DNA of 64,000 nucleotides from the NCBI RefSeq assembly GCF_038396675.1, contig NC_088924.1, positions 25,378,501-25,442,500 on the forward strand, read 5' to 3'. Positions 15,431 through 51,674 of this stretch are shown here, piece by piece. A program made the translations under genes and the position numbers. Within the stretch, counting starts at the first letter, position 1; each line of letters begins with the position of its first letter. This DNA comes from Hydra vulgaris (Eukaryota; Cnidaria; Hydrozoa; Anthoathecata; Hydridae). The notes beneath the pieces were generated by a model that saw only the letters and a program-made list of their open reading frames with translations, did not search any database and was not told the origin of the DNA.

Positions 15431-15582
15431 TGGTTTGTAGCTGCTTTGAATTGATGGAAGCGTGTATTTAGGAGCCGTTAAATACAGGAATGGCTCCCTA
15501 TTTTGATTGGATGAAAAAATTTTGTTTCACAAAGTCCGAAAAACATTTTTTCTCGTTTGCCGGATATCGTGACTTGTATATT

Positions 15583-16065
15583 AGGGTGGGTCGTACTTTT
15601 AAAATTTTGGATATGGGAGCGCGCGCAACATTTTTGTTATGTATTAGAAGAGACGTGAATAATTTTTTTTTTCTTAAAAAGTTCATCTAGTGTGGGTGCA
15701 GGGCGTTTGAAAAATGTCAGTTTTACGAAAATCTTATTATACTGGCATTTTTCGGCCTTTTTTATATTAGCCAAAGGAAAGGCAATTATTAAAAAACAAT
15801 AAGACATAATATAGACATAAAAAATTATATATATATATTCGGTGCTACTTTTCTTAATGCTATACAAACACGATAGACGTAAGAAAAGTTGGCTACCATT
15901 ATGGATTTTACAAAAAATATCTACTTATAAATTTTAGAAATGGGAGCGCGCGTAAAATTTTTTTTATGTGTTAGGATATTAGAAAAGACGTGAATAATTT
16001 TTTTTTTCCTAAAAAGTTCATTTATTGTAGGCGCAGGGCGTTTAAAAAACGACAGTTTTACGAAA
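15583..16065. repeat. Left long terminal inverted repeat
   Basis: About 480 bp matching the right end (19100-19597) in reverse. It is modular: GGGAGCGCGCG, then GACGTGAATAATTTTTTTTT, AAAAAGTTCAT and GCGCAGGGCGTTT, occurs twice inside (about 15617-15720 and 15942-16050), so each TIR contains a diverged internal duplication. CG-rich words stand out. Confidence 0.8.
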
Positions 16066-16488
16066 AACTTTAAAAAAAATTAGTATACAAAACTTGTTGT
16101 TGTTATTTTCAATGTGCGTAATGCTACTAGTATAAAATGAGGTGAATCATGAAACATAGTCATCAAACTTTGTGGGCTTTGGACTTATATCCTCCCTTCC
16201 ATTATTATTAAAAACCATTAAAATTATTTAAATACAGGAAATGGTGTAGGATTTTTTATTTTTATAAAGTTCCAATAGCTTATTTGTAGAATAACTACTA
16301 AGATAATAGTTTCCTGACGATTTGCGGTTTAAACGAGTTTTATTTATTTATGATCATTTTGGCATCCTAAATATTGTAATAAAAATGTAATTAACAAATT
16401 TATAACATATTTATAAAGGTCGTTTTTTTACCTACTACAAAAAGTACCAATATTTCTTAACAAACATAACATCAATTTCATTGCTATA

Positions 16489-18871
16489 AATGGCTAAATC
16501 TACTCGAGCTCAAACAATGTTAAAATGCCCTAAATTGCATGAGCTATTGGGTAATGGACTCGAACTTTGTTTATCAGAGCTGCCTACGCTGAGAGATAGT
16601 TTACGGTATGGAATTTTGTTGCGTGATTGATCAGTTTGAATACAAGATGTATGTGTATACAAATATTTATTAAAATAAAAAGTATTTGGATGTCAGCAAA
16701 TTCTACAATCCCGCTGGTCTCAGAAAAATACGCAGTCGATAAACTTGTCCTTGAATGGAAGATTGCAAAAGACATTAGAAAACTGAGAACTACAAAAAAA
16801 AGAAATATGTATACGGACAAGCTTGATAAGTTATTTGACTTGAAGAAATGTAAGTGCAACATCTTTAGCTGTAATGAAAATGGATGCAATGGTTGTCTTT
16901 TTAAAGCTCATGTAACTTGCATATGTCCAAAAGTAGCAAAGATACCTTTGCAAGAACTATTTTTCCTACAAGCTCAAAGAAATAAAATTGGTAACAAAAG
17001 TTCTTTACAAATAGGATTAGTTGATATACCAGAGACACATCGGTTAACAAGATATTTAGGTAGAAAAGAATCAGACTCTAAAATACCTGGAACACTTAGT
17101 GAGGATGCAAGTAAATGCTAAAATACTAAAAATATTTTTGTCAATTTTTGTTTAAACTGTGAATTGATTATAAATTTTTTTCATTAAAATTGTTTAACAT
17201 AATTTATTTTCTCCTTTAGCAGTAGAATTTCAAACAACAGACGATTCGGACATTGGCAACAAAAATGCAGATAATACAGAAAAAGTTGACTTCAGTTTGA
17301 AAAAAATTACTTAGATATTACCAGGGTTTCTCAAGCAGCTATTAGGTATGGGGTATCTAACAGAGCTGCAGCAGCCATAGCTACTGCTACTTTAGCTTCA
17401 GCAAAAGATGCAAATTTTTTAAAGAAAAATACTGATATTTTCGTTGATCACAACAAAATAAAACGAAGTAAGACTAAGTTAATGAAAGAAATCCGAAGTA
17501 GAGCTGAAAAAGTAGCGATGAATGATAATATTCAATGTATATTTTTTGATGGACGAAAAGATTTGACTAAGTACATGAGAGAAGAAGAAGATGGAAAATT
17601 ACACCCATCGGAAAAAAAAGAAGAACATTATTCAGTTTGTTCTGAACCTGGAGTAAAATTCCAACTTCATTTCACTAACAATTCTGAAGAAAGAGTAGAG
17701 ACTGCAGCTGAGCAAATAGCTGATAATATTTACGAACGGATTGTGAATCATGATGTCGAAGACTATTTAGTTGCCATTGGTGCAGACTCAACAAATTTAA
17801 ACACTGGTTGGAAAGGAGGTGTTATCCATTTCCTTGAACATAAATTGGATAAAAAATTAATGTGAATAATTTGTGCTCTTCATACAAATGAACTACCTCT
17901 CCGACATCTAATGATCCAGCTTGATGGAAAAACTACGTCTAAAAATAATTTTTCTGGTTCTATTGGAAAACTTATAGGTTAGGCAACTAGCTTCAAAGTC
18001 AAAGATAGCATAGTAAAAATTGAATTTCCTAATGCAATAAAAGAACTTGACTCTGAAGTTGTAAAGTCGCTATCAGATGATCAAAAGTATCTTTATAAAA
18101 TTACCCATGCAATTAACGCTGGGGTTTTTCCGGAAAATCTTAAAAGTAAAGAAATTGGTCCACATTCACATGCAAGATGGTTGAATTTTGCAAATAGAAT
18201 ATGTTTACTTTGGTGCTCCGAAATCGTACTTTCAGTTGAAGAAACATAATCTGCAACTTCTGGTGGAGTTTATTGTTGGTGTTTATGCGCCACTTTGGTT
18301 TGAAATCAAAGTAAAGTGGAAGTGGACTGAAGGGCCTAATCATATACTCAAGCAGTTAAAACTTTTTTGTCATCAAAGACTTAAAGTTAAAGACATTGTA
18401 ATGCCCTACGTTTTATCTTCTTCATGGAATGCTCATAGTGAAAATGTTCTTCAAACGTTGTTATGTAGTCTAGAAAAAACAGAAAGACAATTTGCAGTTG
18501 AAACAGTTTTAAAATTAAGAGGAGATTTAAAATACGTAAACACTAGTGAAAGAAGTAGAAAACACCATATACATAATGAAAATGCTGAATCACTTTTTGA
18601 TCTAATTGATTGGAGCTTGGATGTACACGAACCTTTACTTACATGTTTATTGTCAAAGGATGAACTTTTAAAATACAATGATATTCCAATGTATGTACCT
18701 TGTTTTCCTGTTCATGGGCAAGCTATCGAACGATGTGTCCAAGAAGTCACACGAGCTTCTCAATCGGTATTTGGAAAAGATAGAAGAGATGGGTTCATAA
18801 GAGCAACATTAGCACATCGAGAAATCATGCCCGTGAACCAATCAAAAAAAGATCTATTTAAATTAATTTAA
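16489..18871 (+). pseudogene. Transposase relic of unassigned DDE-like family
   Basis: Broken plus-strand gene inside the long-TIR element. An ATG at 16489 starts MAKSTRAQTMLKCPKLHELL and runs through SELPTLRDSLRYGILL to a TGA. The next frame (16627-17121) has a Cys-rich cluster, CKCNIFSC followed by CNGCLFKAHVTCICPK, probably zinc-binding. An AG acceptor-like site near 17220 hints at an intron. The central part (17482-17865 and onward) contains IFFDGRKDLTK and IGADSTNLNTGWKGG, candidate catalytic Asp segments, then ICALHTNELPLRHLMIQLDG and NNFSGSIGKLI. The last frame (18188-18871) ends VHGQAIERCVQEVTRAS and DGFIRATLAHREIMP. I recall this as a repeated uncharacterised invertebrate family but cannot name its superfamily. 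Several stops make it inactive. Confidence 0.6.
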
Positions 18872-19099
18872 GCAATATTAATTTTTTGATGTTTTGCTTT
18901 GATTATTTATGATCACAGTAAATAAGTTGAACTTTAAATATATTGTATCTTTTAGATGAAATTTTATATATTTTATTTATGACTTTATGAAGAGTAGCAC
19001 CCCAAATTATGTTTTATTTTAATGTCTATATTATACCTGGTTGTTTTTTGATGATTGCATCGCCATAGGCTTAAATAAAAGGACAGAAAAGTGCTAATT

Positions 19100-19597
19100 T
19101 GATGCATTTTTAGTAAAACTATCGTTTTTTAAATGCCCTGCGCCCACAATAGATGAACTTTTTAGGAAAAAAAAAATTATTCATGTCTTTTCTAATATCC
19201 TAATACATAAAAAAAATATCACGCACGCTCTCATTTTTAAAATTTATAAGTAGAGTTTTTTTGTAAAATCCATAATGGTAGCCAACTTTTCTTACGTCTA
19301 TCGTGTTTGTATAGCATTAAAAAAGTAGCACCGAATATATATATATTTTTTTATGTCTATATTATGTCTGATTGTTTTTTTAATAATTGCCTTTCCTTTG
19401 GCTAATATAAAAAAGGCCGAAAAATGCCAATATGAAAAGATTTTCGCAAAACTGACATTTTTCAAACGCCCTGCGCCCACACTAGATGAACTTTTTAAGA
19501 AAAAAAAAATTATTCACGTCTCTTCTAATACCCTAATACATAAAAAAAATGTTGCGCGCGCTCCCATATCCAAAATTTTAAAAGTACGACCCACCCT
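19100..19597. repeat. Right long terminal inverted repeat
   Basis: Reverse complement of 15583-16065 with scattered substitutions. It includes both internal modules, the CGATAGACGTAAGAAAAGTT motif and a short TA run. Confidence 0.8.
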
Positions 19598-19700
19598 ATT
19601 GTATATGTTATATATGGAACATGTATATGAAATATTATGAATATATTCTTTAGATCGGAGCAAATATTTTGACCAATCAAATTAGGGAGCCATTCCTGTA

Positions 19701-20708: not shown

Positions 20709-20898
20709 ATAGACCTTCTCGCGGTTGCGAAATGCATCTTGGGTAATCAGGGCAAACAAACAACAAAGTTCGCTTTATTTAAATCGAAGCTGAAGACCTA
20801 CTTCCTATTATTTTTATTATCTAGTGCTTAGATTTATGGTTTGATGTTTTATATTGTGAATTTTTTATTATTATAGATAAAGAAAATATAACTATAAA

Positions 20899-22263
20899 AT
20901 GCCAAACTACCGTTGCTGTGTTGCTGGTTGTAATAACGATTCTAGGTATCCGGATAGGTTACTCAAAAGAAGTCAAGTAACAGAGCTAAAATTTCATTAT
21001 TTTCCTAAAGACTCTGAAAAAAGACATCAGTGGGTAAATCAAGTTGGAAAAGGTTTACTAAATTTTGCAGTTTCTGATAATAAAGTGGTTTGCTCTAATC
21101 ATTTTGAGTTTGGAAAACCTACTTTTGCTTCACCTAATCCAACTTTGTATTTGAATATTCGTAATGCATATAAGGAATCTCCTACAAAAAGAAGAAAGCT
21201 TAAAAAATTGGATCTTATTGTGGAATCAGATTCAAACAGTTTCTCTACAAGTTTAGCTATAGAAAGTGAAACTTGTAATAAATCTATTCAGTGTAATGAA
21301 CCAATACGAGAATCAATGATTTTTGCTAATTTAACTAGAGATTCTGATGTTCAATTTTTTACTGGCCTAGCAAATTCAAATATCTTTGAAATGTTATTTT
21401 CTTATTTGCAGAGGAAAGGAAATATAATGCACTACTGGAAGGGTAAAAAAAATACAACTAAAGACTTATCTTCGCCAAGAGATTTAAAAACAATATCATT
21501 AAAATCTCTAACATTGCAGCAAGAATTTCTTCTTGTAATGATGCGTTTACGCTTAGCTCTTTTAACTGAAGATCTTGCTCATTGTTTTATGATTTCTTCT
21601 TCTGTAGTCAGTTCAGTATTTATAACATGGATAAAACTATTTTCTCTTGAGTTAAAATGGATTATACATTTTCCAAACAGAAATATTATAAAAAGAAATT
21701 TACCAACCATGTTCAGAAAGTACTATCCGAAATGCTCTGTAATAATTGATTATTCTGAACTCTTTATTGAAACACCGTCTAGTTTGGACATAGCTGCAGC
21801 TTGTTGGTCAAATTATAAACACCATTATACTGTAAAATATTTAGTTGGAATAACACCCAATGGTGCAGTTTCTTTTTTGTCTAATTGTTATGGTGGCAGA
21901 GCTAGTGATGTTTTCATAGTTAAAGATTGCGGATTTTTGAAATATTTACAACCTGGTGATCAAGTTATTGCAGATAGAGGTTTCAAAATTAAAGATCTTC
22001 TAGCATTTTACCAGTGTAACATTGCTATTCCCCCATCAAAACATACAAATTTTCAGATGACATATAATGATGTACAGGAAACCTCAAAAATTGCAAATGT
22101 TAGAATTTATGTTGAGCAAGCCATAGGGCGTATGAAAAACTTTCGCATATTAAAAAATGAAATGCCAGTCACATTGTTGCCCTTATGTGATAATATTATT
22201 ACAGTATGTGCCATATTAACAAACTTTATGCCCCCACTTTGCATTGATGAAAACAAAGCATAA
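20899..22263 (+). CDS. THAP-domain DDE transposase (left copy), intact
   Basis: A complete 454-residue single-exon frame starting MPNYRCCVAGCNNDSRYPDR. N-terminal THAP zinc finger (about 1-90): Cys at CCVAGC, the HQWVNQVGK segment, VCSNHFEFGKP, and the closing PTL motif; it should bind the element ends. A coil/HTH-like segment follows (about 195-250, SLTLQQEFLLVMMRLRLALL). The DDE_4-type catalytic core has Asp in CSVIIDYSELFIETP, Asp in QVIADRGFKIKDLL and Glu in RIYVEQAIGRMKNF, so all three acidic residues are present. The protein is identical to the minus-strand copy at 26451-27815. It faces the centre of the palindrome and is followed by TA and GATA microsatellites. Harbinger/ISL2EU assignment is from domain order and element context. 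Confidence 0.9.
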   Translation: MPNYRCCVAGCNNDSRYPDRLLKRSQVTELKFHYFPKDSEKRHQWVNQVGKGLLNFAVSDNKVVCSNHFEFGKPTFASPNPTLYLNIRNAYKESPTKRRKLKKLDLIVESDSNSFSTSLAIESETCNKSIQCNEPIRESMIFANLTRDSDVQFFTGLANSNIFEMLFSYLQRKGNIMHYWKGKKNTTKDLSSPRDLKTISLKSLTLQQEFLLVMMRLRLALLTEDLAHCFMISSSVVSSVFITWIKLFSLELKWIIHFPNRNIIKRNLPTMFRKYYPKCSVIIDYSELFIETPSSLDIAAACWSNYKHHYTVKYLVGITPNGAVSFLSNCYGGRASDVFIVKDCGFLKYLQPGDQVIADRGFKIKDLLAFYQCNIAIPPSKHTNFQMTYNDVQETSKIANVRIYVEQAIGRMKNFRILKNEMPVTLLPLCDNIITVCAILTNFMPPLCIDENKA

Positions 22264-22362
22264 GTTGTTAATTAAAAACAAAAACATAAACTTTTTCTTC
22301 TAAATGAAATTTTTTACAGAAGTATATGTATGTGCGAACATATATATATATATATCTATCTA

Positions 22363-22692
<330 letters not shown>

Positions 22693-22977
22693 TTAGTCTT
22701 TTTTTTTTTTTTGTGAACTACTTTGTTTCATTTTTTTACGGGTATGTTGCATACAAAAATTTTAATTTTATCTTTGATTTTTTTTTATATACAGTTTAAA
22801 CTAAATAAGGAGGTGTCTTATTAATTAATAAACTTTTTAAATCTTCTAAATCAATAGTTTGTTACTGAAAATCTCATAAAAAGATAAATTTTAAATTATA
22901 TAATGTTTAAATAATACACTTTTTATCTCCATAACTATATAAAAATGTCTATAAATCAATATTTAAGTACTTTTTAG

Positions 22978-23473
22978 TTATTGGCAAAGTATGCAAATAA
23001 ATCTATTATTCAATATTGTCTTTTTATTGATTCCACAGCATTCCCAATGAAACCAGAGACCGCAAATATCGCATTCAATACTGTTATCTTTTTCAGTATC
23101 AAATTCATTTTCATTTAAGCATGGCTTGTCACACAATGGACATGTATATAAATGTACAAATCCAAGCAAGTAACGTTGGACATAAGTTTTAAAAAACAGA
23201 ATTAAACTTGGAAGCACTCTTTGCCAATGATCTTCATCAAACGTGATTTTGTTTACTAGAACATCTTTCTTTGTATAGACTACAAAATATGTTGAGTTAT
23301 AACCAGTGATTGCCATTTGGCCAATTATTTGGGTGTAGTATTTGTGATTTTTTTTTAACATGACTTTGTTGTCAACCATCTCCAAGAAGTCAGTTTTTTT
23401 CCATGAAACATTTATTTCTCCGTCACGAATACTGAAGGGGCATTTATATTCTACACAAGCTTTTAGGCAACAC
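22978..23473 (-). pseudogene. Truncated YqaJ-PHD gene 3' end (left arm)
   Basis: Minus-strand duplicate of the end of the central nuclease gene. It starts at the palindrome junction within CCLKACVEYKC and runs to the same stop after FICILCQ. It keeps the YqaJ ECP-type VEYKCPF motif and the PHD-like finger but lacks the SAP, SWIM and first YqaJ parts. The Met at 23475 is created by unique junction sequence and is not a natural start. Confidence 0.85.
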
Positions 23474-23796
23474 ATTTTTTAACTCTATTTATAACATTTT
23501 CATTTTTATTATTTTTTAAAAACAATTTATTATTATTTAATAAAAATAGTTTATTCAAATCATATTTATTATTTAAAAATAAAGCTTACGGTTTTTTTTA
23601 TATATATAATAAACTCTATTAATGCCGAAATAACACTTCTTTTTTTTTTGTTTCTGTCAAAAAACTTAACAACTATAACTTTATTGAAAGAAGGAAAATG
23701 ATCCTTTTGCGTCCATATTTAAAGAGCTTAATTTGGAGACAGTTGCATTGTTATAAAACTGAAGTAAAATTTTTCAAAACAAAATAACAATTAGAT

Positions 23797-25698
23797 ATGG
23801 ATGCAATGCAAACTGGCGATGAAACAAAAGTTGAAACTCTTGAGAATTTTATGGAAATGTCAAGCGGAGAGCTGCAGTTTATCTCCAACAGCGCGGTTTA
23901 ACATCTTCTGGAAATCATAGCTCCCTTGCTGCTAAAGCTTTAATAGCATATGAGCAGAAAATTGAAGTTGTTAAAAGTGCCAAAAATATTTGGGAAAAAT
24001 TAAACACTGACTACACAAATCTTTTGAAATCTTTCAAAATAGATTTTGATCCGTTGAAAGCCTTTGACTTTAATGATGATATCAAACAATGGCCTGTTAC
24101 AAATATTGGACAAATATTTGCTTTTATCTTAGAAAGCAAAGCCTTTGAAACTGAGTATATTGGTCACTACAAACTGAAAAAAGCGTATTCATACTTTGGA
24201 AGTGGTTTTGTTGACAAGTTGTATTGCAAAAAAGTGAACGATTATATTATTATACGTACTTCGGTCACACCTTCTCAACATATTCGGGCAAAGTTCCATC
24301 AACTTTGGATTTTGTTTAATATAGATGGTGCCATTTGCACAGCGTTTTGTACGTGTACCGCAGGACAAAGTAAATGTTGCAACCATATTGTAGCAGCACT
24401 TTACAAAATAGAGTTTGCAAACACTATAGGTTTTACCACTCCTACTTGTACTGACAATGTTTGTAACTGGAATGCTCCATCCAAAGAAGTTCAACCAAAT
24501 ATGCTAAAAGATATGAACATTGTTCAACACAAAAGTGGTAAGTCACATAAAACTTATTTGATGTGTAAAGACAAAAGAGATTTTGATCCGAGACCAGAAG
24601 AAATGCGTGAAGTTACGGATGCTGATAAAAATTCTTTTTTATTAAATGTCAAAACAGTTCTCCCTAACGCCGTTTTAAATACAATGTTTACTCCTCCTCC
24701 AGAATGTGATGTGCCACTCCCAATAACAGAAATAGCTTCTGCAACACTAAGTTTTTTGCCGACGGATCCACGTAGTGTGACTGATAGATTTCTTGATATG
24801 CTTACGTTTAATGACCATCAACAACAAGAATTAGAAAAAGCTACAAGAAACCAATCACATTCAAAGCAATGGTGGGAACAACGCAGAGGACGAATAACAT
24901 CATCATGCTTTTATTCCGTACACAAAATGGTTACATCTTTTTTAAGAAACCGCGAAAAAGACGTTAAATGCAGAGTTGCACCACTTCTTAAGGCTATTGT
25001 CGAACCTGTTGAATTAAAATATGTAGCATCTATCAAATGGGGTAAAGAAAACGAGAAAAACGCAGCTAAAGCATGTCAACTGTAACATCTGTAACTGTAA
25101 ACATGTAAAACATCAAAACCCAAAATTAATAATTTGTGGTTTATTTTTGCATAAACCACAACCATATCTTGGCGCTTCTCCGGACAACATTTTTCAATGT
25201 CAGTGTTGCCTAAAAGCTTGTGTAGAATATAAATGCCCCTTCAGTATTCGTGACGGAGAAATAAATGTTTCATGGAAAAAAACTGACTTCTTGGAGATGG
25301 TTGACAACAAAGTCATGTTAAAAAAAAATCACAAATACTACACCCAAATAATTGGCCAAATGGCAATCACTGGTTATAACTCAACATATTTTGTAGTCTA
25401 TACAAAGAAAGATGTTCTAGTAAACAAAATCACGTTTGATGAAGATCATTGGCAAAGAGTGCTTCCAAGTTTAATTCTGTTTTTTAAAACTTATGTCCAA
25501 CGTTACTTGCTTGGATTTGTACATTTATATACATGTCCATTGTGTGACAAGCCATGCTTAAATGAAAATGAATTTGATACTGAAAAAGATAACAGTATTG
25601 AATGCGATATTTGCGGTCTCTGGTTTCATTGGGAATGCTGTGGAATCAATAAAAAGACAATATTGAATAATAGATTTATTTGCATACTTTGCCAATAA
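23797..25698 (+). pseudogene. SAP-SWIM-YqaJ-PHD nuclease gene of the palindromic element (two frameshifts)
   Basis: The only copy with a 5' half. From ATG 23797: a SAP-like DNA-binding helix pair (LENFMEMSSGELQ, then LQQRGLTSSGNHSSLAAKAL), broken by a one-base frameshift near 23880. The frame then runs to 25085 with a SWIM zinc finger (CTCTAGQSKCCNH, about 24350-24385) and the start of a YqaJ/lambda-exonuclease domain (SKQWWEQRRGRITSS, then IKWGKENEKNAAKA). A second frameshift near 25076 leads to the rest of YqaJ (YLGASPDN, VEYKCPFS with the Asp and Glu-x-Lys metal/catalytic residues, YYTQIIGQMAITG). The end is a PHD-type finger (CPLCDKPCL, IECDICGLWFHWECCGI). YqaJ-family proteins are 5'-3' exonucleases; a role in transposition is inferred. 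Repair of both shifts would be needed for a full product, unless they are sequencing errors. Confidence 0.82.
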
Positions 25699-25983
25699 CT
25701 AAAAAGTACTTAAATATTGATTTATAGACATTTTTATATAGTTATGGAGATAAAAAGTGTATTATTTAAACATTATATAATTTAAAATTTATCTTTTTAT
25801 GAGATTTTCAGTAACAAACTATTGATTTAGAAGATTTAAAAAGTTTATTAATTAATAAGAAACCTCCTTATTTAGTTTAAACTTTAAAAAAAAAAAAATC
25901 AAAGATAAAATTAAAATTTTTTTATGCAACATACCCGTAAAAAAATTAAACAAAGTAGTTCACAAAAAAAAAAAAAAGACTAA

Positions 25984-26370
<387 letters not shown>

Positions 26371-26450
26371 ATATGTTCGCACATACATATACTTCTGTAA
26401 AAAATTTCATTTAGAAGAAAAAGTTTATGTTTTTGTTTTTAATTAACAAC

Positions 26451-27815
26451 TTATGCTTTGTTTTCATCAATGCAAAGTGGGGGCATAAAGTTTGTTAATA
26501 TGGCACATACTGTAATAATATTATCACATAAGGGCAACAATGTGACTGGCATTTCATTTTTTAATATGCGAAAGTTTTTCATACGCCCTATGGCTTGCTC
26601 AACATAAATTCTAACATTTGCAATTTTTGAGGTTTCCTGTACATCATTATATGTCATCTGAAAATTTGTATGTTTTGATGGGGGAATAGCAATGTTACAC
26701 TGGTAAAATGCTAGAAGATCTTTAATTTTGAAACCTCTATCTGCAATAACTTGATCACCAGGTTGTAAATATTTCAAAAATCCGCAATCTTTAACTATGA
26801 AAACATCACTAGCTCTGCCACCATAACAATTAGACAAAAAAGAAACTGCACCATTGGGTGTTATTCCAACTAAATATTTTACAGTATAATGGTGTTTATA
26901 ATTTGACCAACAAGCTGCAGCTATGTCCAAACTAGACGGTGTTTCAATAAAGAGTTCAGAATAATCAATTATTACAGAGCATTTCGGATAGTACTTTCTG
27001 AACATGGTTGGTAAATTTCTTTTTATAATATTTCTGTTTGGAAAATGTATAATCCATTTTAACTCAAGAGAAAATAGTTTTATCCATGTTATAAATACTG
27101 AACTGACTACAGAAGAAGAAATCATAAAACAATGAGCAAGATCTTCAGTTAAAAGAGCTAAGCGTAAACGCATCATTACAAGAAGAAATTCTTGCTGCAA
27201 TGTTAGAGATTTTAATGATATTGTTTTTAAATCTCTTGGCGAAGATAAGTCTTTAGTTGTATTTTTTTTACCCTTCCAGTAGTGCATTATATTTCCTTTC
27301 CTCTGCAAATAAGAAAATAACATTTCAAAGATATTTGAATTTGCTAGGCCAGTAAAAAATTGAACATCAGAATCTCTAGTTAAATTAGCAAAAATCATTG
27401 ATTCTCGTATTGGTTCATTACACTGAATAGATTTATTACAAGTTTCACTTTCTATAGCTAAACTTGTAGAGAAACTGTTTGAATCTGATTCCACAATAAG
27501 ATCCAATTTTTTAAGCTTTCTTCTTTTTGTAGGAGATTCCTTATATGCATTACGAATATTCAAATACAAAGTTGGATTAGGTGAAGCAAAAGTAGGTTTT
27601 CCAAACTCAAAATGATTAGAGCAAACCACTTTATTATCAGAAACTGCAAAATTTAGTAAACCTTTTCCAACTTGATTTACCCACTGATGTCTTTTTTCAG
27701 AGTCTTTAGGAAAATAATGAAATTTTAGCTCTGTTACTTGACTTCTTTTGAGTAACCTATCCGGATACCTAGAATCGTTATTACAACCAGCAACACAGCA
27801 ACGGTAGTTTGGCAT
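26451..27815 (-). CDS. THAP-domain DDE transposase (right copy), intact
   Basis: Reverse-strand copy of the 20899-22263 gene with an identical 454-residue translation: THAP finger, central helices, and DDE_4-type core with all three acidic residues. It converges on the YqaJ gene (stop at 25698), the likely ancestral arrangement. Complete protein identity across the two arms means either a very recent duplication or continuing gene conversion between them. Confidence 0.9.
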   Translation of the reverse strand: MPNYRCCVAGCNNDSRYPDRLLKRSQVTELKFHYFPKDSEKRHQWVNQVGKGLLNFAVSDNKVVCSNHFEFGKPTFASPNPTLYLNIRNAYKESPTKRRKLKKLDLIVESDSNSFSTSLAIESETCNKSIQCNEPIRESMIFANLTRDSDVQFFTGLANSNIFEMLFSYLQRKGNIMHYWKGKKNTTKDLSSPRDLKTISLKSLTLQQEFLLVMMRLRLALLTEDLAHCFMISSSVVSSVFITWIKLFSLELKWIIHFPNRNIIKRNLPTMFRKYYPKCSVIIDYSELFIETPSSLDIAAACWSNYKHHYTVKYLVGITPNGAVSFLSNCYGGRASDVFIVKDCGFLKYLQPGDQVIADRGFKIKDLLAFYQCNIAIPPSKHTNFQMTYNDVQETSKIANVRIYVEQAIGRMKNFRILKNEMPVTLLPLCDNIITVCAILTNFMPPLCIDENKA

Positions 27816-28005
27816 TTTATAGTTATATTTTCTTTATCTATAATAATAAAAAATTCACAATATAAAACATCAAACCATAAATCTAAGCACTAGATAATAA
27901 AAATAATAGGAAGTAGGTCTTCAGCTTCGATTTAAATAAAGCGAACTTTGTTGTTTGTTTGCCCTGATTACCCAAGATGCATTTCGCAACCGCGAAAAGG
28001 TCTAT

Positions 28006-47926: not shown

Positions 47927-50900
47927 CTAAAATTTATCAAATGATTTTTTGGCACTTGTTGATTTAGAAACTTTTAGAACATTGAATCTTATTGTTTTGC
48001 TCAATGGACGACATTGTCCGACAGTTACTAGATCGCCCAAAGCAACGTCCCTAGAGCGAAAAAAAAGAAAAGAAGTTATTTTAATTCATGAGTTAAATAA
48101 AAAATTAACAAAATTAATAGAAAACAAACTTACAGAAAACAAGGAGACATATGAGCAACTAAGTTCTTGTGACGTTTTTCATATCTTTGATATTTTTTTA
48201 TGAAATGGAGGTAGTCTCGACGAATAACTATTGTACGCCTCATTTTTAAACTTTTAACGATACCAGTTAAAATACGACCTCTGATGCTTACATTTCCTGT
48301 AAATGGGCACTTTTTGTCAATATATGTTCCTTCAATAGCCTAAAGTAAAAATAAATTATTCTATAACGAAAAAAATTTTATTAAAAAAAAAAACAAACAT
48401 TAAAATTTATTGAGAGCTCAGAATAGATTGTTATCATTAAACTCAAACAATGTAGGTAGAATAAAACACTTCATCATAGCTCTTTAAGCATAATTAAAAT
48501 TCAGTTGTTTCCCACTGAGCTCATTAAATCATTTAATATAAATTTAAATATACATTATCATATGGGAGCATAATAAAAAACACTATTTTATAATTCCACA
48601 AAATCTTAAAAATTCATTAATAATTTTATTTAATTCAAAAAGTTAAATAGTAAAAGCCAATAGTCTAATTTTGCGTTAAACTCACTAAATTATTAAAGTG
48701 GCTTATAATTACTTATTATAATCCTAATTTATTTTATATCTCAATGCTAAAAACATAGAACTAAATATACTGTATATAAAATAGAGAGCTCAGAATTTGC
48801 TATCATCATTTAAAATCAAACAATGTAGGTAAAAAATAAAATATCATCAATGCTCTTCAAATTAACTAAAAACGACATATAAGAATTTCCATCAGGCTCA
48901 TTAAATCATTCAAATAATCATTCAAAATCAACAAAGTTTATCATCATATGGAAATAAAAGATAATGTATTTATATAATACAATAAAACTAATGATAGTTA
49001 CAAGCATAACTTTAATACCATCTAAATTTGACCCTTTCTTTTTCCAAATTTAGTCGTAGTTAAGTATTTAACTATTTTATATTTAACTATATTATACAAA
49101 ATAAAAAATATCACTAATGCTCTTCAATTCAAGTAAAACGACTTGTAAGAATTTCCATCAGGCTCATTAAATCATTCAAATAATCATTTAAAATCAACAA
49201 AGTTTATCATCATATGGAAATAAACGATAATGTATTTATATAATACAATAAAACTAATGATAGTTAAAAGCATAACTCTAATACCATCTAAATTTGACCG
49301 TTTCTTTTTCCAAATTTAGTCGTAGTTAAGTATTTAACTATTTTATATTTAACTATATTATACAAATTTATATTTAACTATATTATACAAAACATAAAAT
49401 ACAGCTGAGTACTAACTTTTAATTTATCTATGTAATATATTTCTCTGATTAGATCAAACAATTGTCAAATGCGTATTTTATGTTTTATATATGCGGTAGG
49501 GGTAGAACACTTGCTTTATTAGCGTGAGGTTCTGAGTTTGATTCCTGCCATGTCCCTAAGCCACAGTGCACAGAAACAAGTTGAGCTCAGTAGTAACTGA
49601 ACTTAACTTGTTTCTGTGCACAGTGGCTTTGTGTTTCAGAGTTATAGTTGGGAGAGGGTTATAACCACCAGTAGCCTCCTCATCTGCAGTGACCTTTTCG
49701 GCCTTGGGGAGGTGAATTACAAAAAAATAAATATATTTAACATAAAAAAGCATCAAAAGAACTTATAAAAGCAATTTAAATCAAAACATTGTTTAACTAT
49801 ACAGCTTTTAGCAAATAGTTTGAATAGTGATTAGTCTTAGTAGTTAAATAGTTTTTAACTCAAGTAATCGACTAGAGTAAATAAATTAAAGTTAAAGGTT
49901 CACATAAAGTTAAAAAACACTCACTGTCCTAATTTTAAAATAAAGGCATTCAAGCTTCTATTTTAGTGAACCTTAAAATGTGTTTATATAAATCTTGAAA
50001 TAAAAAGATGAATAAATTTTACAACTATGTTTTCAAAGAAACAGCTGAGATTTATTATAAAAATATTAAATTAATAAATTGCAGCAAGAAGTTGAAAAAC
50101 ACAACTATAATTATAAAATATAAGGGCATAAACTTGAAGCTTATTTAAGTTTAAAATTATTTTTTAATTCTTCCAGGCTATATAATTACAGACAAATATT
50201 TCATAACTAAATTTAACATTAAGTCAAGATAATGCTTTTTTTACCAAAACAATTTAAAACTCTTTTTTTAATGTTCACATATTCTTGAAGAATTACTTGA
50301 GTGCACTTAAAGAATCATTTTAGACCTGTTCTTGTTAACATGTATTAAAGTAAAATTTTTGTAATAAAAAGTTATAGGGGAAATAACACTTTAAATAAGA
50401 GATTTTTGATATATAGATAGTTGCCATTTAAAAGTTACATATCACAGCGACTTAAAACAAATTACAGAGGTATTGTAATTAGGAAAAGACATACCAATGT
50501 ATTTCTAAGAAAGAATTTTTTTCTAAACTTTAAACACAGCTAACTGAACAATTTCAAAAATAAGATAACTGAAAAGCATTTATAATATATTACAACATTA
50601 ACTTGTATCAGAAATATAGATTAAAGTTAAAGATGAATTCCTGACTTATAAATTATATTTATTTTTAAGATATTAAAAATTTAAATAACATTTTACAGTT
50701 TATCAGCCAAAATTAAGTCTTTTTATGTGCTTTTGTTCATTGAGACTGCAATATCTTGAAATATTAATTATAAATATCATTATTATTTATTATTTCAATA
50801 TTATGCATTTTTTTAAAATACTGAACTCAATTAGAAATAGCAAATTAAAGATTGTAAACCAAGTTTTATCAGGATGACCAGAAAGTGTACCCTGAAGGTA

Positions 50901-51674
50901 TGCTATAGTTTTAATTTAATGTTGCAAGTCTTTAGGAAAAGTCAATGGCCAAAAATATAACCAAAGCTCTGCTGGACCTTGCAGTCGTTTAATTTAAAAA
51001 TAACAAGGTATGCAGTACTTCAAAAATCTAATTTAAATATACGCAATGACTGCAAATTAAAACACTAAAGTCATCTCTGTTAAAAATTTAAATAATATTA
51101 CAACAAAAAATACAAATATTCTATACCTCCCTTGGTGTTTTAAATCCTAAACCAACATTTCTCACATAGCGAAGTTCTTTATTTTTGGTTGTTTTTGCGA
51201 CAACCCTTTTTTTGTTCAGGAAGATGGCTGCTTGCTTTTGAAACGCCCTTTCGTTCTACAAATGACAAATGAAAAATTTAATTTCTTTTAGTATCAGTAA
51301 ATACATAAAAACTTAACACATTAATAATATTAAGTCTGGTATAAAATAAAAGTATGGATGCTACGGTGAATTACTTAAAAAAGTACTACCGCTTTATTGC
51401 AATTTTAACTTTATAAAAATATGATACTTTAATAACTTTTAAAGCAGCAACATAATCCACTTTAATTTTATTTTGAACAAAATACAGGATTTTTGCACAA
51501 CGATCTATTTAAGAGGCTTTTTACTTTTATAAATAAAAACTTTAAAATTTACTTGAAAAAAACACTAATTCCATGAAACGAAAACTTTTTCCTTGACAAG
51601 ATAATAGAATATATCACTTAATCTTGTTTATTACACCAAAACAAAGAGGGAAGAAAAATGACCTGCTCTGCCAT
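47927..51674 (-). CDS. RPS11: Ribosomal protein S11 (uS17), complete, four exons
   Basis: Small-subunit ribosomal protein. Exons from 5' to 3' on the minus strand: 51674-51663 (MAEQ), 51255-51127 ([19 protein letters not shown] to [11 protein letters not shown]), 48339-48134 ([54 protein letters not shown]), 48050-47927 ([29 protein letters not shown], ending SFDKF). Every junction is GT/AG and keeps frame, giving 471 nt or 156 residues, against 158 in human. It matches human S11 along its whole length with no damage, so this is a working host gene. Intron 2 (48340-51126, 2.8 kb) is much larger than introns 1 (407 bp) and 3 (83 bp) and contains the snoRNA-like cluster and a SINE. The tiny first exon ending after four codons is typical of ribosomal protein genes. 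Confidence 0.96.
48413..48483 (-). ncRNA. SNORD34: Box C/D snoRNA-like, SNORD34 type, copy 1
   Basis: Same strand as RPS11, in intron 2. Terminal stem AGAGC/GCTCT (48483-48479 with 48417-48413), box C ATGATGA (48477-48471), guide TACCTACATTGT (48458-48447), box D' TTGA (48446-48443), box C' ATGATAA (48437-48431), box D CTGA (48421-48418). The guide is complementary to 28S rRNA ACAATGTAGGTA and, with the following TTGAG, matches the guide/D' segment of vertebrate SNORD34 as I recall it. By the D'+5 rule the target is the U of ACAAU. Box C' is weaker than in copy 2. Confidence 0.72.
48511..48568 (-). pseudogene. Degenerate SNORD57-type snoRNA copy
   Basis: Aligns with the two good copies at 48885-48955 and 49151-49221 and keeps the guide GATTTAATGAGC. 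Box D reads TCAG instead of CTGA, and box C is ATGATAA. The terminal stem is changed on both sides (CTCCCA with TGGGA instead of TTTCCA with TGGAAA), so pairing is preserved. Confidence 0.55.
48785..48856 (-). ncRNA. SNORD34: Box C/D snoRNA, SNORD34 type, copy 2
   Basis: The best-formed copy. Stem AGAGC (48856-48852) with GCTCT (48789-48785), box C TTGATGA (48850-48844), guide TACCTACATTGT (48831-48820), D' TTGA (48819-48816), C' ATGATGA (48809-48803), D CTGA (48793-48790). Length 72 nt, normal for the class. The guide block is unchanged between copies 1 and 2 while spacers differ, the pattern expected under selection. Confidence 0.78.
48885..48955 (-). ncRNA. SNORD57: Box C/D snoRNA, SNORD57 type, copy 1
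   Basis: Terminal stem ATTTCCA (48955-48949) with TGGAAAT (48891-48885), box C ATGATGA (48947-48941), guide TGATTTAATGAGC directly before box D CTGA (48895-48892). The guide pairs over 13 bases with 18S rRNA GCUCAUUAAAUCA. The fifth base before box D faces the A that is methylated in human (Am99) under SNORD57, whose guide ends the same way. In human this snoRNA sits in NOP56, so the host differs. Confidence 0.82.
49151..49221 (-). ncRNA. SNORD57: Box C/D snoRNA, SNORD57 type, copy 2
   Basis: Same architecture as copy 1 at an offset of 266 bases: stem ATTTCCA/TGGAAAT (49221-49215 with 49157-49151), box C ATGATGA (49213-49207), guide TGATTTAATGAGC, box D CTGA (49161-49158). It differs from copy 1 at very few positions, in the middle. 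Confidence 0.8.
49492..49725 (+). mobile_element. tRNA-derived SINE-like element with internal palindrome
   Basis: Starts with a tRNA-like promoter region: GCGGTAGGGGTAGAACAC (box A-like) and GAGTTTGATTCC (box B-like, 49535). Next comes a long palindrome (49557-49627), then a body with CCACCAGTAGCCTCCTCATC and TTTTCGGCCTTGGGGAGGTG, ending in an A-rich tail (about 49722-49735). It lies antisense in RPS11 intron 2. Confidence 0.6.
49557..49627. repeat. ~70-bp near-perfect palindrome in SINE
   Basis: AGCCACAGTGCACAGAAACA starts an arm that pairs with the reverse complement ending CACAGTGGCTT; only a few mismatches (for example TTGAGCTCAG against CTGAACTTAA). Confidence 0.8.
49736..51126. other. 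Rest of RPS11 intron 2
   Basis: AT-rich intronic sequence. I looked for further box C/D patterns on the host strand and found none convincing. Confidence 0.5.

Follow-up and report, generated by a model that had tools for sequence, protein, structure and literature searches.

Host switching of snoRNAs across animals is usually credited to retroposition. One of the families concerned here, SNORD34, corresponds to U34, AtU34 and yeast snR62, and its 28S U target is human Um2824. In mammals, SNORD34 is encoded in Rpl13a introns (PMC8142323), and in the mouse the host of Snord57 is Nop56 and that of Snord35b is Rps11 (PMC5454292). The host association of old snoRNAs is described as unstable across eukaryotes in a study whose table of eukaryote-ancestor snoRNAs includes U34 and whose Table 2 shows that poplar has RF00147 in a different host intron (PMC3511168). 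Sponge ribosomal-protein introns, in turn, are reported to carry differing snoRNA sets and cis-duplications (PMC3412847). The main text of PMC3511168 names neither SNORD34 nor SNORD57 nor RPS11, and the same holds for the main text of PMC3412847. Movement of host DNA by mobile elements is also documented, including transduplication by the DNA transposon Turmoil-1 in C. elegans and snoRNA uptake by retroposon-like elements in C. elegans and platypus (both in PMC2572040), as well as the plant Pack-TYPE elements, which carry host DNA within DNA transposons (PMC8903248).

Here we analyzed a 64-kb stretch of the Hydra vulgaris genome (911.5 Mb, 15 contigs), C5:25378501-25442500, referred to below as the window, in which intron 2 of RPS11 very probably (we would put it at about 90%) serves as a polycistronic host for box C/D guide RNAs of two ancient families. 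The SNORD34-type genes resemble SNORD34/U34 (RF00147) in being box C/D RNAs with the D' guide TACCTACATTGT, a predicted 28S U target and an intronic location in a ribosomal-protein gene, and differ from it in that the host is RPS11 instead of RPL13A, that two intact copies share one intron and that an extra copy lies in a transposon. The SNORD57-type genes share with SNORD57/U57 (RF00274) the C/D boxes, the D guide TGATTTAATGAGC, the predicted target 18S A99 and a similar size, whereas they fall below the Rfam cut-off outside the guide and boxes, are hosted by RPS11 as opposed to NOP56 in the mouse (PMC5454292), and comprise two intact copies plus a probable pseudogene. Mammalian SNORD35B is likewise a C/D snoRNA with an RPS11 host, as reported for the mouse (PMC5454292), but it belongs to another family than the snoRNAs of Hydra RPS11. 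The cis-duplicated snoRNAs of sponges offer a parallel from an early-branching animal in which intronic snoRNAs have likewise been duplicated, although the sponge copies are described from neighbouring introns and those of Hydra stand in tandem inside one intron (PMC3412847).

A sequence-only reading of this DNA had named RPL13A and NOP56 as the human hosts of SNORD34 and SNORD57, in agreement with the sources above (PMC8142323; PMC5454292, mouse for Nop56/Snord57), and had called the joint location in RPS11 a different host arrangement. The hosts do differ from the mammalian ones, but a change of host is ordinary for intronic snoRNAs (PMC3511168, PMC3412847). Residence in RPS11 is a fresh example of known host switching, not a new kind, and with the array the record of unstable snoRNA host genes gains a cnidarian case. 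Among the top-ranked results of a literature search we found no report of SNORD34 and SNORD57 together in RPS11.

The RPS11 intron and its snoRNA genes

RPS11 was located by tblastn using human RPS11 as the query. It is an intact gene: exon 3 matches Pfam Ribosomal_S17_N and Ribosomal_S17, and the spliced frame of 156 aa has 100% identity to a Hydra vulgaris uS17 entry, so that the host proposed from the letters, RPS11 on the minus strand, is borne out. The features of the locus are collected in Table 1.

Table 1. Features of the RPS11 locus, in window positions.
Feature	Position	Strand	Basis or remark
RPS11 (uS17) gene, ATG to stop	47927..51674	-	tblastn, splice-site reading, Pfam, protein identity
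RPS11 exon 1, coding part	51674-51663	-	ATG at 51674
RPS11 exon 2	51255-51127	-	
RPS11 exon 3	48339-48134	-	
RPS11 exon 4	48050-47927	-	
RPS11 intron 2, cluster host	48340..51126	-	2787 nt, GT...AG
SNORD34-type copy a (34a), intact	48411..48485	-	Rfam 38.2 bits; boxes + stem scan
SNORD34-type copy b (34b), intact	48783..48858	-	Rfam 45.1 bits; boxes + stem scan
SNORD34-type copy c (34c), truncated 5' piece	near 49077..49127	-	altered box C, without guide, without box D
SNORD57-type copy a (57a), probable pseudogene	near 48512..48570	-	without box D; missed by box scan
SNORD57-type copy b (57b), intact	48889..48952	-	Rfam 34.9 bits; boxes + stem scan
SNORD57-type copy c (57c), intact	49155..49218	-	Rfam 34.5 bits; boxes + stem scan
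Younger tandem duplication	48860..49366	.	2 x 241 nt, 95% identity, offset 266 nt
Intron stretch copied into C4 hAT element	48445..48860	-	L003:4564-4980 = C4:10347863-10348279

In 34b, the guide TTACCTACATTGTT precedes a D' box TTGA, followed by box D CTGA, and the terminal stem is GAGC/GCTC. The SNORD57-type copy 57c combines box C ATGATGA, the guide TGATTTAATGAGC, box D CTGA and the stem TTTCCAT/ATGGAAA; it differs from 57b at one position, and in both copies the guide directly abuts box D. The third copy, 57a, retains the exact guide and the stem, but has TCAG where box D CTGA is expected and ATGATAA as box C, and is most likely a pseudogene. Checking with the Rfam models, as the sequence-only reading had proposed, placed SNORD34 twice above its cut-off (38 bits; 34a and 34b) and SNORD57 twice below (47 bits; 57b and 57c some 12 bits under).

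We also scanned both strands of the 64 kb for box C DTGATGA with CTGA 35-74 nt downstream and a 4-bp terminal stem, rules that were set after the candidates had been seen. The scan returned four matches, 34a, 34b, 57b and 57c, and none elsewhere; 57a and 34c fail the combination of box C, box D and stem. Together with the Rfam matches at the named places, this upholds the claim of at least four complete candidates on the host strand, to which our analysis adds the 57a copy, the truncated 34c and an intact SNORD34 on another chromosome.

Across the 911.5-Mb genome, the guide-plus-box string of the SNORD34 type, TACCTACATTGTTTGA, has three matches, two at the RPS11 array and one on C4, and that of the SNORD57 type, TGATTTAATGAGCNTGA, has two, both at the RPS11 array; the reversed-pattern control for TACCTACATTGTTTGA and the control for TGATTTAATGAGCNTGA each gave zero. 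The genome-wide search with the SNORD34 model, in which 68 of 223,578 candidates were scored, missed the known copy at 48411. With the SNORD57 model, five matches at E<=1 were obtained among 61 scored of 287,793 candidates, with 57b and 57c ranking top; the guide is absent from the other three listed (L041-L043), which we rejected as further SNORD57 genes. Of 14 prokaryote genomes searched as controls, 11 also gave matches to the same model at E<=1, in no case above the cut-off.

The remaining Rfam matches in the window, to SCARNA7, to 23S-methyl and to miRNA models including mir-297, mir-2363 and mir-1451, all score below their cut-offs and were discarded. Between 34b and 57a, a hairpin with AAGCCA/TGGCTT arms occupies 48654-48710 and is present in the C4 copy too; showing no C/D boxes by eye, it was dropped as a further structured RNA.

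Predicted targets, growth and use of the array

Both guide types are present in intact copies, as had been claimed, and the SNORD57 type is complementary to 18S rRNA of the same genome. The 18S copy used for this comparison (L046, C4:44925900-44935800) is shortened, with an Rfam SSU match over 118-1251, and contains GGCTCATTAAATCA, a 14-nt complement to 57b and 57c made up of 13 guide bases and the C of box D. In both genes, A99 of this copy pairs with the fifth base counted from box D, so the predicted target is base 99, the equivalent of human Am99 named by the sequence-only reading. Since 57a also finds a chance 14-nt complement, at another site within the 9.8-kb stretch that contains this 18S, and complement length is a weak criterion in AT-rich DNA, the guide claim rests on position at box D. 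A second 18S fragment, on C6 (L045), looks rearranged.

No full 28S was found, and the C4 stretch (L046) lacks the 28S string. A search of the genome for the 26-nt 28S string, allowing up to three mismatches, gave a single, exact match, in a divergent rDNA fragment on C12 (L010) that has no Rfam LSU match. By reading, AACAATGTAGGTAAGG in this fragment pairs with 34a over 13 nt and with 34b over 14 nt, and a U lies opposite the fifth base from D' in both pairings.

The array grew through tandem duplication, as indicated by the probable SNORD57 pseudogene and the truncated 34c that lie among intact genes. The older step doubled a 57-34 pair at an offset of about 373 nt and accounts for the pairs 57b-34b and 57a-34a. 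The younger duplication (48860-49100 and 49126-49366) broke within SNORD34, so that the upstream copy yielded 57c together with 34c, a SNORD34 reduced to its 5' part. To our knowledge, six units within one intron, four of them intact, are unusual for animals.

In the mechanism that we propose, snoRNAs from the spliced intron would assemble with the C/D proteins, whereupon the D' guide would direct 2'-O-methylation of the 28S U at the human Um2824 site and the D guide that of 18S A99. The last gene, 34a, whose 3' end lies 71 nt from exon 3, would be placed for splicing-coupled exonuclease release; mammalian intron work gives 71 nt as a distance for good release of intronic C/D snoRNAs. The inner genes would require an extra endonuclease cut or another route, or may be only partly used. 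If release relied solely on trimming from the ends, only the outermost snoRNAs would be freed, which counts against the proposal. So do the minimum-free-energy folds of five stretches, which are unremarkable (z -0.33 to -1.02).

That the array is nothing but chance box-like motifs in AT-rich DNA is a reading to which we give almost no credence. The window is indeed AT-rich and the box and guide words are short, and with one mismatch allowed the numbers expected per window are 0.24 for GCTCATTAAATCA and 0.40 for ACAATGTAGGTA. The 13-nt 18S complement GCTCATTAAATCA has three exact matches in the window, at 48519 (57a), 48896 and 49162; as shuffled windows reach three GCTCATTAAATCA-like matches in 1 of 100 cases and two ACAATGTAGGTA-like matches in 7 of 100, guide words alone are the weaker evidence. 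Chance is contradicted, however, by the Rfam SNORD34 E value of 1.4e-5 for the window, by the confinement of all four scan matches to the RPS11 intron, and by guide-plus-box strings that are near-unique genome-wide with zero control matches. A different doubt concerns use: the RPS11 array may be decaying, with only one or two units made and methylation depending on a single copy per family. We regard this as quite conceivable while leaning against it. The missing box D of 57a and the truncation of 34c fit such decay, one copy per family would be enough, and release of inner genes may be poor where one intron carries several snoRNAs; yet boxes, stems and exact guides are kept in four units, and 57b and 57c are nearly identical.

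A SNORD34 copy in a hAT element on C4

A 1,061-nt intron query has eight matches in the genome (seven of seven candidates scored), of which only two are substantial, the RPS11 locus itself and a segment on C4; the other six span 55-71 nt and all fall on the AT-rich start of the query. The C4 segment measures 417 bp and is identical to the RPS11 intron at 406 of 417 aligned positions (97%). It comprises all of SNORD34b (41.6 bits, above the cut-off), the pseudogene 57a and the 5' half of 34a, with no exon. Where it begins on the left can be placed only to within about a dozen nt, because the neighbouring C4 bases resemble the 34c flank, and its other edge stops inside another snoRNA's guide. 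The sequence-only reading had listed intact copies elsewhere among the findings that would speak against its cluster, an objection that applies in part, with one intact SNORD34 on C4.

The segment lies within an element that has 17-nt perfect terminal inverted repeats, TAAGGCCACGCGGTTAA, flanked outside by an 8-of-8 bp target duplication, CCTTACAC, and it sits directly upstream of a BED-finger transposase ORF. Domains zf-BED (1.2e-6) and Dimer_Tnp_hAT (1.2e-22) fall in two separate ORFs, which implies that the transposase frame is broken in the C4 copy; hAT-like_RNase-H and DUF659 match below their cut-offs only. hAT families are listed among the putatively active elements in Hydra, and transposable elements account for 596 Mb, or 65.3%, of the AEP strain genome (PMC12220107).

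With 40 of 60 candidates scored, the left arm of the C4 element has at least 46 matches genome-wide, of which 20, including C4 itself, were fetched. The snoRNA segment is absent from all 19 other family members examined. In each of the 19, homology continues to element position 747-751, and it resumes at 1179-1180 in 18 relatives and at 1215 in L028; the gap between the homologous parts is 28-30 nt in the 18, 47 nt in L028 and 430 nt in the C4 element. The left arms of the relatives are 97-99% identical to that of the C4 element, which would mean that the family moved recently. The filled element appears to be single-copy, given that TACCTACATTGTTTGA was found only once outside RPS11. As a control, 400 overlapping stretches of the window were scanned for terminal repeats with a target duplication: a perfect 12-nt repeat with an 8-nt duplication occurred in 49, and in 21 when at least six G+C were required in the repeat, the same number as at 17 nt. 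The G+C-filtered pairs number seven in the window, and we read them as belonging to two palindromic regions (15582-19598, 21948-26766) rather than as separate chance matches. The control thus shows that inverted elements occur in the window, and the C4 case draws on the empty relatives as well.

The C4 element is thus a DNA transposon that has transduplicated a snoRNA gene. Transfer went from RPS11 to the transposon, given that the segment is missing from the examined relatives and that RPS11 has the array in full. The segment replaces about 29 nt of the element and carries neither an exon nor a poly-A tail, and capture would most likely have come about by template switching in gap repair after element excision. 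The alternatives, that the copy arose by retroposition or by a segmental duplication later hit by a hAT insertion, strike us as very improbable. They could draw on the 5' edge of the C4 segment, which, within the uncertainty of about a dozen nt, falls near the 5' stem of 34b, like the trimmed end of a snoRNA precursor. But the segment is enclosed by both terminal repeats of a single element, outside which the two 8-bp copies of the target duplication match; the sequences on either side of it are almost contiguous in each of the 19 other copies examined; and it stops inside a second snoRNA's guide and has no poly-A. On the terminal repeats, the target duplication and the empty relatives we ruled out retroposition.

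Transduplication by the hAT element has Turmoil-1 and the Pack-TYPE elements as its nearest parallels, in which host DNA likewise lies inside a DNA transposon (PMC2572040, PMC8903248), whereas the C4 element carries an entire noncoding gene, that of an intronic snoRNA. For snoRNA uptake, PMC2572040 names retroposon-like elements only, while the Hydra carrier is a DNA transposon. Among the top-ranked literature results, judged by title and abstract opening, no case of snoRNA capture by a DNA transposon was found, and the hAT-borne SNORD34 seems to be a new form of transduplication. The C4 element is a clean case, with one filled element, 19 of 19 examined relatives empty and the source locus known, in which a complete snoRNA gene was evidently taken up without sign of an RNA step. 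It makes testable how intronic snoRNAs change hosts, a question so far answered mainly with retroposition. We consider it unlikely that hAT elements are a working exit route for snoRNAs in Hydra, that the C4 SNORD34 is expressed and that such capture contributed to host switching in animals.

By eye, most of the relatives (L012-L030) have a 5' region before the transposase start that ends in a T-tract followed by AG, which suggests the end of a 5' UTR intron that the capture would have removed.

Other features of the window

RPS11 intron 2 also contains, by eye, a tRNA-derived SINE-like stretch at 49490-49720 (GGTAGGGGTAGAACACTTGC ... GAGTTTGATTCC), within which 49558-49629 forms a fold-back with 34-nt arms that are 91% complementary. 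The 4,017 bp at 15582-19598 are a probable DNA transposon, whose inverted repeats are perfect over 54 nt and whose 8-bp target duplication reads TTGTATAT. A large inverted duplication spans 20881-27833, its arms starting at 21948 and 26766 being perfectly complementary over at least 200 nt, and carries 460-aa ORFs on the plus (20881-22260) and minus (26454-27833) strands, which are identical over the 160 residues compared and which we take to be THAP-like.
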